Position numbers and translations under genes: made by a program. Below, piece after piece: positions 6,980 to 9,403 of a stretch of DNA of 34,349 bases. Position 1 is the stretch's first letter; each line of letters begins with the position of its first letter. Under the pieces are notes generated by a model, which was not told the origin of the DNA, did not search any database, and saw only the letters and a program-made list of their open reading frames with translations. The DNA comes from Thiotrichaceae bacterium (GTDB taxonomy: Bacteria; Pseudomonadota; Gammaproteobacteria; Thiotrichales; Thiotrichaceae): NCBI GenBank assembly GCA_027083815.1, contig JALWMR010000209.1:1-34349 (forward strand). The letters are read 5' to 3'.

Positions 6980-7906
6980 TTATGCAACATCTGGTGCAGG
7001 AAGTTTAAACCAGTAGGGTTCATTCACTTTTCTCTGCAGTTTTTGGACCCGTTTTTCTCGCATCAGAAATTGAGGCCCTTTGGGTGTTTTCTGAAAACCA
7101 AATTGTTTTGGCAATTTGCTATACAGAGAACGCGGTGGTTTGGTGTACTTTATGTGTTTTAAAAGCACACCGACTTCAAAGCTATGGTAGTAAATCTTAT
7201 GGATGCCCAGATCGTGCCGGATAAAGTCTATCGCGGCGGCGAGCATGGCTTCCTGCCAGATTTTCGCATAAGGTGCCAGCACCTTGTTTGCATAGGTTTC
7301 CAGCTCCTTTTTGGTGTATTCACCATAGAAATCATCACCATCTTTTACGGCATCACGCACGGTGCGGATCCAGTCACATTGAATTTCTTCTATCATGACT
7401 TCACCCGTCTCAAAATCAAGATCAAGGCGCACCCACGCCAAAGTACCACGATGCCCATCCTGTTTGGTGGGATGCCCACCCCAGTTAAAGGTGTGCAAAT
7501 CACCGGGGCGAATCAAACGCTGAAGCTGCTGCGTGTGATCGTTTGCCATATTCAGCTGTAAAACAAGATGATAACCCTGGCGGCTCATCTGGTTCCATTG
7601 CCAGTGTTTCTTGCCATCTCCCCATTCTGACAAAGTAGTCACAAACGAAAGGGGCTTTTCATCCCAGATCATTTCCAGTAGCTCAGCTGATATCATGCCG
7701 TTTCCCGCCAATGCAAGTGCCTTTTTAACAGGCGCCTTATTTAGCAGATTTGCATAGGGTGATTGCTTTAATTGACTGATTGGCATAATTTGTTCACCAA
7801 TATAATCTTTAAGCAACATCAATGCGTAACGATCACGAAAGTAGTAAAACTTGCTGCGCTCACCTGAAAGACAGGCGATAATTTCTTTTAAGTCTTGTCG
7901 TTCCAT
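6980..7906 (-). CDS. Conserved-looking protein of unknown function with an IEEIQxDW motif (308 aa)
   Basis: Not recognised as a named protein. The soluble 308-residue sequence has an N-terminal helical part (1-85), a central WGG-containing segment (FNWGGHPTK, 140-148), then a strand-rich core RGTLAWVRLDLD with the motif IEEIQCDW at 172-179. A helical segment (210-250) and YSKLPKQFGF (262-271) follow. The order of IEEIQxDW, a helical A-rich segment and Y-K-LPK-FG resembles domains in large polyvalent phage proteins. That link is from memory of motifs and unproven. It is followed by the 61-residue basic gene in an apparent operon. Upstream lie two direct AACGAATACG copies and a 7-bp hairpin. 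The start at 7904-7906 is the first ATG in frame; the ribosome binding site is weak. Confidence 0.8.
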   Translation of the reverse strand: MERQDLKEIIACLSGERSKFYYFRDRYALMLLKDYIGEQIMPISQLKQSPYANLLNKAPVKKALALAGNGMISAELLEMIWDEKPLSFVTTLSEWGDGKKHWQWNQMSRQGYHLVLQLNMANDHTQQLQRLIRPGDLHTFNWGGHPTKQDGHRGTLAWVRLDLDFETGEVMIEEIQCDWIRTVRDAVKDGDDFYGEYTKKELETYANKVLAPYAKIWQEAMLAAAIDFIRHDLGIHKIYYHSFEVGVLLKHIKYTKPPRSLYSKLPKQFGFQKTPKGPQFLMREKRVQKLQRKVNEPYWFKLPAPDVA

Positions 7907-8189
7907 AATATTGATTAACTCGTATTCGTTGTCGTATTCGTTCCCTGATTTTCAGAGTCCGTTTAATGGATTCCCCGATAACGGGGAACCGCCAACTAGC
8001 TTTAATATTTAGCGAATACATAATATTTCTCCTTATTTGAGAGCTTCATTATCTTTCGTGAATAACTCTCTCTACTGGCTATCTTCATATCTATACAAAT
8101 CTCATCACTTTTCGGACAAAACCACTAAAAAGTAGGGGGGGTGTACTTTAGGAGAGACTGCCTCTTTATTTTTTATCAATCCTCAGGGC
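7907..8189. other. Non-coding stretch upstream of the 308-residue gene
   Basis: This is the left part of a 528-bp region without a standard gene (7907-8434). It holds a direct repeat CGTATTCGTT (7921-7930 and 7933-7942), an inverted partial copy CGAATAC (8013-8019), a stem-loop TTCCCCG-ATAA-CGGGGAA (7971-7988) and repeat copy 4 (8127-8149). The direct repeats lie 15-36 bp before the start of the 308-residue gene and could be operator half-sites. No convincing promoter was picked out. Confidence 0.5.
8127..8149 (-). repeat. Interspersed intergenic repeat, copy 4
   Basis: Minus strand core AAAGTACACCCCCCC then TACTTTTT, followed by AGTGG and TTTT. It lies between the terminator of the candidate small RNA unit and the 308-residue gene, reading in the direction of the latter. 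Confidence 0.85.
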
Positions 8190-8191
8190 AT

Positions 8192-8230
8192 AAAAAAGCC
8201 CTGAGGACTTGCGTCACTCAGGGCTTTTTT
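8192..8230 (-). terminator. Strong intrinsic terminator, 14-bp stem
   Basis: AAAAAAGCCCTGAG (8192-8205) and CTCAGGGCTTTTTT (8217-8230) form a perfect 14-bp stem with an 11-base loop and T runs on both strands. It ends the small minus-strand transcription unit and would also stop read-through from the COG0523 gene. A further copy of the arm, CCTCAGGGC (8181-8189), can pair instead with GCCCTGAGG (8198-8206). Confidence 0.9.
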
Positions 8231-8369
8231 AAATGTTCACACCAGGCTGCCATATTAGACAGAGAGCATGTGATTTTGCTGAGTAACGCTTGTTTAAAAG
8301 CAAGCTCCCAGCAAAATTGCAAGGAGATTAGCTCATAAGATTCTGTGGTGGTTGTGTTAATTTGAACAT
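8218..8369 (-). CDS. Possible small protein gene with a -1 frameshift, or a 13-codon leader ORF
   Basis: From the ATG at 8367-8369, which has an AGGAG ribosome binding site six bases upstream, translation gives only MFKLTQPPQNLMS and stops. One frame over, an open frame runs on to a TGA at 8218-8220 inside the terminator stem, encoding SYELISLQFCWELAFKQ and then LLSKITCSLSNMAAW and CEHLKKP. That frame lacks an ATG of its own near the ribosome binding site. A single -1 shift near 8340 would join the two into about 52 residues. The unit could be a frameshifted or programmed-shift small gene, a leader peptide, or chance. No homologue is recognised. Confidence 0.25.
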
Positions 8370-8409
8370 TTATATCTCCTAAAAATTGATTGGGTTAAAA
8401 TTGGCGCGG

Positions 8410-8438
8410 ATTGTGAACCTGTTTTTATTTGCTGTCAA
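8410..8438 (-). promoter_or_regulatory. Near-consensus sigma-70 promoter for the small unit
   Basis: The minus strand reads TTGACA (8433-8438), 17 bases, CACAAT (8410-8415). The -35 box is perfect, spacing is optimal and the -10 keeps four of six bases. The -35 overlaps the stop codon of the COG0523 gene. Transcription would start near 8403, about 35 bases before the small ATG. Confidence 0.6.
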
Positions 8439-9403
8439 ATAGAATTTGATGAGTTAATAGATGAATAGATTAAACAGGCTTCCAATTCCATTTGAAGTAT
8501 TTCCTTGTCGGTTTCATTTATTTCCAGACCAATCAGTTGTATGCGTGATTCATTAATCGGACCTATTTTTTCAAAGTGTGCCACACCCGAATCGGCATTT
8601 ATTAAAAAATCACCATGCGCCATTTTGATAATGCCTTTAACGCGTAACTGTTTATTATTTAAAACCCATTGTTTTACAGCTTTTTTATCAAATAACTTAT
8701 TTTCAGGAAACTGAAGGCTGATTTTTTGCCAGTTGAGTGTCTTATCCAAACCATTGCCAGCACGTTGTTTTGTTTTCGGGATTATCTTTATTCCTTGGGA
8801 ACGCTCCCTATCAAGCCAGGCAATATCCATTTCAGAGAAGGAGGTTTGAGCAATTTCTAGATCATTGTGATTATTTTGAAGCAAGTCGGCAAAAGCTTCC
8901 ATTGCTTCAAGGCTAGCCACATCTGTTTTATTGGCGACCAAAATATCAGCAGTGGCCAACTGATCCTGAAATAAATCATTATTTTTTATGCGCTCATCCA
9001 GCAGCTTTTCGGGGTCAAGCAACGCGATTATCGCTTTCAAATCAATTACCTTGGAAAAATGTTCGGCACTTAGTGATTTTATTAAGCCAGAAGGATGCCC
9101 TACGCCACTGCTCTCAATCAACAGGCGATCAGGGCGCGTTTTTCGTAATAAACGATTCACCGCCACCTGCATCGGCGCACCCTGCACACAGCACATACAA
9201 CCACCGGGAATCTCCTCAACCGTTATTCCATGTGATTGATAAATATGCCCATCAATGCCAACTTCACCAAACTCATTAACCAACACAGCCCAACGCTCAT
9301 TATCGGGCTTTTGCTGAAACAGGTTGAGTATAGCCGTGGTTTTCCCCGAGCCTAAAAAGCCCATAATAATATGCGTGGGAACGTGTTGAATAATGGATTT
9401 CAT
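8435..9403 (-). CDS. COG0523/CobW-like G3E-family GTPase (putative metallochaperone)
   Basis: The G3E P-loop GTPases of this subfamily deliver metals such as zinc or cobalt to target enzymes. The 322-residue protein has the Walker A GFLGSGKT (15-22), the subfamily segment NEFGEVGIDG, the metal-binding CxCC motif as GGCMCC (67-72), ESSGVGHP with Walker B function (97-104) and NKTD for guanine (158-161). A C-terminal CobW_C domain (about 225-315) contains LRVKGIIKMAHGDF. No histidine-rich metal loop is present. No cobalamin genes are nearby, so cobW itself is unlikely. A classical Zur box was not seen upstream. The gene is preceded by repeat copy 5 and followed at its stop codon by the promoter of the small RNA-like unit. 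Confidence 0.9.
   Translation of the reverse strand: MKSIIQHVPTHIIMGFLGSGKTTAILNLFQQKPDNERWAVLVNEFGEVGIDGHIYQSHGITVEEIPGGCMCCVQGAPMQVAVNRLLRKTRPDRLLIESSGVGHPSGLIKSLSAEHFSKVIDLKAIIALLDPEKLLDERIKNNDLFQDQLATADILVANKTDVASLEAMEAFADLLQNNHNDLEIAQTSFSEMDIAWLDRERSQGIKIIPKTKQRAGNGLDKTLNWQKISLQFPENKLFDKKAVKQWVLNNKQLRVKGIIKMAHGDFLINADSGVAHFEKIGPINESRIQLIGLEINETDKEILQMELEACLIYSSINSSNSI

Follow-up and report, generated by a model that had tools for sequence, protein, structure and literature searches.

A probable ribosome-controlled transcription attenuator of the RNA ligase gene rtcB, retained as an orphan leader in a Thiotrichaceae genome

The contig JALWMR010000209.1 of Thiotrichaceae bacterium (assembly GCA_027083815.1), analyzed over its whole length of 34,349 nt and referred to here as the window, carries a compact leader unit on its minus strand, from about position 8403 to 8192, between a gene of the COG0523/CobW family and a gene for a 308-aa protein. 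An earlier sequence-only reading described this unit as self-contained, composed of a promoter, a Shine-Dalgarno (SD)/anti-SD pair, a hairpin and a terminator, and proposed a regulatory or dual-function RNA linked to metal homeostasis through the COG0523 neighbor. The features of the locus, with the segment names A to I used below, are as follows.

8435-9403, minus strand: COG0523/CobW gene, directly upstream of the leader
8410..8438, minus strand: predicted sigma-70 type promoter TTGACA-17-CACAAT, with 10/12 consensus matches (-35 TTGACA at 8438-8433, 17-nt spacer, -10 CACAAT at 8415-8410)
8374..8380, minus strand: segment A, Shine-Dalgarno sequence AGGAGAT, 7 bp with segment C
8363..8371, minus strand: segment B, AAATGTTCA, around the start codon, complementary over 9 bp to segment F
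8328..8369, minus strand: leader mini-frame of 13 codons, MFKLTQPPQNLMS followed by a stop (ATG at 8369, TAA at 8330-8328)
8322..8328, minus strand: segment C, ATCTCCT (anti-SD), 3' of the mini-frame stop; also pairs with GGGAG of segment D
8301..8316, minus strand: segment D, TTTTGCTGGGAGCTTG, 5' arm of the protector hairpin (D:E pairing)
8274..8292, minus strand: segment E, CAAGCGTTACTCAGCAAAA, 3' arm of the protector hairpin, with the antiterminator arm GCGTTACTCAG inside it
8231..8239, minus strand: segment F, TGAACATTT, just 5' of the terminator, complementary to segment B
8195..8227, minus strand: intrinsic terminator stem G:H, 14 pairs (11+3), -22.9 kcal/mol
8221-8211, minus strand: antiterminator partner in G, CTGAGTGACGC, terminator 5' arm
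8207-8198, minus strand: segment H, TCCTCAGGGC, terminator 3' arm
8192..8197, minus strand: U-tract (T6), end of the predicted terminated transcript of about 210 nt
8180..8189, minus strand: segment I, GCCCTGAGGA, 3' of the U-tract, 10-bp complement of H
8114-8149: dispersed short repeat in the gap between the leader and the 308-aa gene, with the motif GTACACCCCCC-N3-CTTTTT at 8127-8146, minus strand
6980..7906, minus strand: gene for the 308-aa protein, first after the leader, frame intact; its homologues follow rtcB in relatives

The promoter, SD sequence, mini-frame, complement, hairpin and terminator are all present where the sequence-only reading had placed them. The promoter overlaps the end of the COG0523/CobW gene as described, the TGA stop lying within the TTGACA of the -35 element, and transcription is predicted to start at ~8403 on the minus strand; promoter-like sites 5' of other leaders reach a mean best score of 9.8/12 versus 8.1/12 in shuffled sequences. 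The terminator stem was recovered with its 14 pairs, followed by T6. One stem length required correction: the hairpin consists of 10 bp (8316-8307 paired to 8283-8274) and an inner stem of 5 bp, instead of the 9 bp counted before. ATCTCCT is located at the mini-frame stop, its first base being the last A of the TAA. Three pairings were absent from the earlier description: E:G, in which the hairpin 3' arm GCGTTACTCAG is an 11-bp complement of the terminator 5' arm CTGAGTGACGC; B:F, with 9 bp between AAATGTTCA and TGAACATTT; and H:I, in which the terminator 3' arm pairs over 10 bp with GCCCTGAGGA and which could stabilize a read-through RNA. The energies of E:G (-19.3 kcal/mol) and H:I (-24.1 kcal/mol) are both far stronger than those of the cross-pairings. 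The folding energy of the leader is -69.4, versus -46.0 +/- 4.2 in dinucleotide shuffles (z = -5.6, 0/200 as low). The Rfam scan of the window returned zero families at threshold, in agreement with the earlier impression that the unit fits none of the known RNA families.

A DNA search identified the unit in genomes of the genus and family of the window, and the same-genus homologues retain every part of it. Using the covariance model R1 and an RtcB-guided scan of named genomes, we parsed 64 leaders from Thiotrichaceae (Thiothrix, Thiofilum, Leucothrix, Cocleimonas and others), Marinobacter, Alcanivorax, Alloalcanivorax, Acinetobacter, Competibacteraceae and further Gammaproteobacteria. In 62/64 leaders the rtcB gene lies 0-212 nt downstream of the U-tract, so that the unit can hardly be called self-contained; of the other two, L114 ends at a contig edge, and the window is the only leader with another gene next to it. 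The rtcB genes behind true homologues were recognized by the start MPxxxTLNKGKVPVKIFTND or similar. COG0523 adjoins the leader in no other genome looked at, which speaks against a link to metal homeostasis through this neighbor. A frame of 8-14 codons occupies the same place in all parsed leaders, almost always with an SD sequence, and the encoded peptide is neither hydrophobic nor conserved even within the genus (MFKLTQPPQNLMS, MFSQIRKLKN, MFNQNQKFID). The earlier reading had named an intact frame with lost helices in homologues as an outcome that would count against it; the relatives display the reverse, with helices that stay and a peptide that drifts. Among the 376 codons of the mini-frames, those for Asn and Gln are over-represented and those for Cys and Trp do not occur, as judged against a small control, and base composition may explain this bias. 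Codon-specific sensing was rejected as a candidate, there being no repeated codon in the mini-frames.

Several groups of hits were discarded. The R1 hits in G003, G005, G008, G011 and G007 (C1/C24) proved to be plain terminators behind unrelated genes, and the R1 figure of 41/63 genomes with the unit is therefore inflated by such hits. A class-wide search with the model R2 found rtcB at only three of the 30 loci fetched (L142, L143, L146), and the weak R2 hits that were inspected were mostly terminators. At one further locus (L145 in G328, minus strand, match 1501-1611) an SD sequence, short frame, stop, CGCCTTC, hairpin and terminator occur in succession before a gene other than rtcB; this type of attenuator may thus serve other genes too. 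In the loci of the Thiothrix type (L112, L117-L123, L125, L127) the rtcB start codon abuts the U-tract, and because no space is left there for a separate SD sequence, rtcB initiation may also depend on the terminator region.

The gene order leader, rtcB, 308-aa homologue is found in G007 and several other genomes, and in the window rtcB is missing between the leader and the 308-aa gene. The homologue is the next gene after rtcB in G007, L019, L020, L025 and others, and loci with such homologues comprise L019, L020, L024, L025, L027, L031, L050, L052 and L078. The window's genome has a single rtcB (G000:C65), which belongs to another type and is preceded by a sigma-54-like site, TGGCACAGCCATTGC. 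In the sister genome G009, from the genus of the window, there are two rtcB genes, and the leader precedes one of them. Judging from these gene arrangements, the rtcB once located behind the window leader has been lost and the leader is an orphan. The repeat motif GTACACCCCCC-N3-CTTTTT has 8 copies in the window versus 0.07 expected, and at least 40 in the genome; as a guess, this dispersed repeat may have taken part in the loss. About 285 nt, the repeat included, separate the terminator from the 308-aa gene, the only gene that read-through in the window could reach. The conserved protein of ~310 aa, with an EE(I/V)Q(S/C/N)DW motif, adjoins this rtcB clade in many Gammaproteobacteria. The 308-aa protein matched no Pfam or NCBIfam family at threshold, and its AlphaFold model (pLDDT 83.5) matched no solved structure at E<=0.001, with weak acetyltransferase-like matches only; we regard the ~310-aa protein as a candidate partner in RNA repair. 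In several genomes where the 308-aa gene was not found next to rtcB, the gene that follows rtcB encodes a small basic protein (NPLMRKGGxH...SR..KRQ) (L021:6506-6853, L022:6369-6623, L023:2372-2629, L044:6176-6469, L084:6213-6539).

Covariation was analyzed in an alignment of 31 Thiotrichaceae leaders. For D:E and G:H together, 93.6% of cells are paired and two-sided changes occur in 15/23 pairs (88 cells vs 26.7 shuffled); D:E alone has 93% of cells paired and two-sided changes in 6/9 pairs, and G:H has such changes in 9/14 pairs. The alternative helix E:G played no part in fitting the alignment; it is paired in 93.4% of cells with two-sided changes in 7/11 pairs (33 cells vs 11.7 shuffled), and its signal collapses when the alignment is slid by one column. 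In an own-versus-foreign test across 40 non-redundant leaders, each segment was paired with its own partner and with the partners of other leaders, and the pairing energies were compared. For A:C, C:D, D:E, E:G, G:H, H:I and B:F the own partner was better, among all 40 leaders as well as among those of Thiotrichaceae, where A:C reached p<=0.001 and B:F and H:I each p=0/4000; outside Thiotrichaceae H:I was not significant (p=0.12). The shuffling ignores shared descent, yet the control pairings, which share that descent, stay flat in 14/16 combinations, the exceptions D:H and F:I involving segments that resemble or overlap true partners. The A:C helix of L177 comprises 10 bp without a mismatch (GTTCTCGAAA paired to TTTCGAGAAC). 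The SD/anti-SD pair noticed in the sequence-only reading is thus real and general, being conserved and covarying across leaders, and the homologues with preserved helices, along with the folding z of -5.6 in the window, place the unit beyond chance and support its reading as a regulatory RNA.

The segments are arranged as a chain, with a possible partner for each one on either side. The helices A:C, D:E and G:H are compatible with one another and lead to the terminator, and C:D and E:G are likewise compatible and exclude it; the former set represents the terminated (off) form and the latter the read-through (on) form. As in leader-peptide attenuators, a short frame with a ribosome binding site lies 5' of the terminator, and the terminator and antiterminator helices are conserved and mutually exclusive. 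We conclude, with a probability of roughly 0.8, that the unit is an rtcB leader, a transcription attenuator under ribosome control, which stayed behind when its rtcB was lost. In the proposed mechanism, a constitutive promoter would produce the leader, and a ribosome would translate the 13-codon frame. On finishing at the stop codon the ribosome would cover C, allowing D:E and then the terminator G:H to form, and the transcript would end at ~210 nt. An early block of translation, by stalled or damaged ribosomes or by missing or cleaved tRNA, would leave C free for C:D and thereby E for E:G; once E:G had formed, the terminator would come too late, and RNA polymerase would continue into the RNA-repair ligase gene. 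The B:F pairing would close the mini-frame again once the RNA is complete.

This scheme was modeled by partition-function folding of RNA ending before H, with ribosome-covered regions blocked, in 40 leaders. The balance favors E:G over D:E in 27/40 leaders when the initiation region is blocked and in 23/40 with early codons blocked; the corresponding counts are 9/40 for unblocked RNA and 1/40 with the stop-codon region blocked. With the stop codon and C covered, D:E is favored in 39/40, and 13/40 leaders have no switch in the initiation-blocked calculation. For the window, E:G of ~11 bp forms with early codons blocked and D:E of ~14 bp with the stop blocked, and E:G is favored in the unblocked RNA before H. 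From these preferences it follows that a finished frame should correspond to termination and an unfinished one to read-through; the model thus predicts that the ribosome position selects the helix. Since the terminator wins in the full-length RNA at equilibrium, whichever region is blocked, the proposed switch would have to act during transcription. RtcB is a ligase that rejoins RNAs cut by nucleases, and read-through triggered by stalling would also suit this role.

In Acinetobacter the leader coincides with an RNA that is already in Rfam. The family RF02606 (AbsR28, 'Acinetobacter sRNA 28', classed as an sRNA gene) was matched by 9/10 Acinetobacter loci scanned (L085:4804-4983, L047:4752-4948 and seven others, with L071 unmatched), and it had no match in the window, the sequence being too distant. 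The published AbsR28 riboprobe (PMC3976366) is an exact match to the leader L085, mini-frame included; the match contains the SD sequence, the complement of the SD region and the 9-codon frame ATG CCA ACA CTA CAA GGT AAA ACA CAG TAA, and rtcB begins 34 nt 3' of the U-tract. AbsR28 was observed as an RNA of ~180 nt by Northern blot and RACE (PMC3976366) and detected again by RNA-seq (PMC5320573); therefore, as judged from the Acinetobacter homologue, leaders of this type can give rise to a terminated transcript. Like the present leaders, AbsR28 lies directly before rtcB of the same clade and comprises an SD sequence, mini-frame, stop, SD-region complement, hairpin, antiterminator and terminator; unlike them, it has been annotated and investigated as a separate sRNA that acts in trans. 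It is reported to bind Mn2+ and to pair with the tssM mRNA in a Mn2+-dependent manner (PMC11796373). The same study reports the downstream gene A1S_2839 as unchanged, with no polar effect, upon deletion of AbsR28 in A. baumannii (PMC11796373). This is the main published point against simple cis control, although the outcome would vary with the way in which promoter and terminator were taken out. The words rtcB and RNA ligase are absent from this mBio paper, and the consulted passages on AbsR28 mention neither a mini-frame nor rtcB. Recurrent AbsR28 mutations arose in evolved A. baylyi (PMC11426457), in a paper from which the word rtcB is absent; these mutations could act through rtcB. We consider that the sRNA annotation of AbsR28 and the phenotypes assigned to it deserve re-examination.

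The class of mechanism, leader-peptide transcription attenuation, is already known, and we place the present leader within it as a separate variant. The nearest comparison is the PA5471.1 leader of armZ in P. aeruginosa, whose leader peptide is reported to have 13 codons. Experiments on armZ agree with the folding predictions above: complete translation gives the 3:4 terminator and a stalled ribosome gives read-through (PMC13041342, PMC12057347), and an early stop, at codon 3, switches armZ on (PMC13041342). Both systems combine a short leader peptide, alternative segments and a terminator with an RtcB-like controlled protein. The difference lies in the target: armZ is among the RtcB-like proteins next to prfH (PA5470), whereas the rtcB genes behind our leaders belong to another clade with other flanking genes, and PrfH-linked rtcB2 was accordingly ruled out as the target. 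At the PrfH-linked rtcB2 loci L193-L195, an SD sequence and a short frame occur at the start with no clear terminator, possibly another translation-dependent leader. The amino-acid operon leaders (His_leader RF00514, Thr_leader RF00506, trp) likewise combine a leader peptide with a 1:2, 2:3, 3:4 pairing logic, and leaders of this kind gave the best of the below-threshold Rfam matches in the window (His_leader 29.4 bits with a threshold of 49, Thr_leader 22.7 bits with a threshold of 55); the window mini-frame has no His codons. In contrast to them, the present leaders have diverse and drifting codons without a regulatory run, add pairings of the SD sequence (A:C) and the start codon (B:F), and precede a gene of RNA repair, not biosynthesis. 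RtcR/sigma-54 control of rtcBA (E. coli type) also acts on rtcB, but through an activator and a -24/-12 promoter, and such sites precede the other rtcB clade, including G000:C65. We set the leader apart from the armZ and AbsR28 families because the window is under the RF02606 threshold and the downstream clade differs, PA5471.1 having been compared by description only. Searches of open-access full texts for rtcB together with attenuation, leader peptide, antitermination or RNA motif returned only the armZ work and the RtcR system. New here are the rtcB leader family, its helix chain, the re-reading of AbsR28 and the orphaned copy.

The published work on AbsR28 suggests a different explanation, in which the ~210-nt transcript is a trans-acting sRNA that pairs with distant mRNAs and its proximity to rtcB is incidental. 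The reported Mn2+-dependent pairing of AbsR28, a homologue by position and layout, with tssM mRNA (PMC11796373) is in line with it, as is the persistence of the window copy without rtcB. We nevertheless find it improbable, given that 62/64 leaders lie directly before rtcB, that the E:G antiterminator, needless for a free sRNA, is kept by compensating changes, and that the mini-frame is present in every leader although its sequence drifts. A combination is rather unlikely, though less so: the terminated leader may be a dual-function RNA, a stall sensor for rtcB in cis and an sRNA in trans, with the orphan kept for the trans role or for the 308-aa gene. This idea, already raised in the sequence-only reading, is kept in play by the reported trans action of the Acinetobacter homologue AbsR28. 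That the unit is a ligand-sensing riboswitch or metal sensor of the COG0523 gene is highly improbable. Such a role would fit the gene directly upstream and the reported Mn2+ binding of AbsR28 (PMC11796373), but the leader sits after, not before, the COG0523 gene, no COG0523 gene lies beside it in the other genomes looked at, no riboswitch family reached threshold, and conservation falls on the SD sequence, frame, stop and alternative helices rather than on an unpaired core. Still less credible is that the structured RNA is the mRNA of a stand-alone gene for a small protein or type I toxin: an SD sequence, an ATG and 13 codons are present, but the peptide is neither conserved within the genus nor hydrophobic.

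The preferred attenuator reading may be extended by the tentative suggestion that the relic is still functional, gating read-through into the gene at 6980-7906 after the loss of rtcB. All helices are intact, E:G and H:I (-19.3 and -24.1 kcal/mol) are far above the cross-pairings, and the 308-aa frame, normally placed just after rtcB, is also intact. We regard this extension as possible yet unlikely, since ~285 nt with a dispersed repeat lie between the terminator and the 308-aa gene, a recent loss of rtcB accounts for the intactness equally well, and the arrangement is known from one genome only.

For bacteria in which the activator RtcR is absent, the attenuator reading of the leader offers a specific proposal for how RtcB is induced, namely that a tiny frame left unfinished, as by broken tRNAs or stalled ribosomes, would open rtcB. 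The published 'sRNA' AbsR28, with its claimed effects on type VI secretion, is physically an rtcB leader, and because of this identity a part of its phenotypes may run through RtcB.
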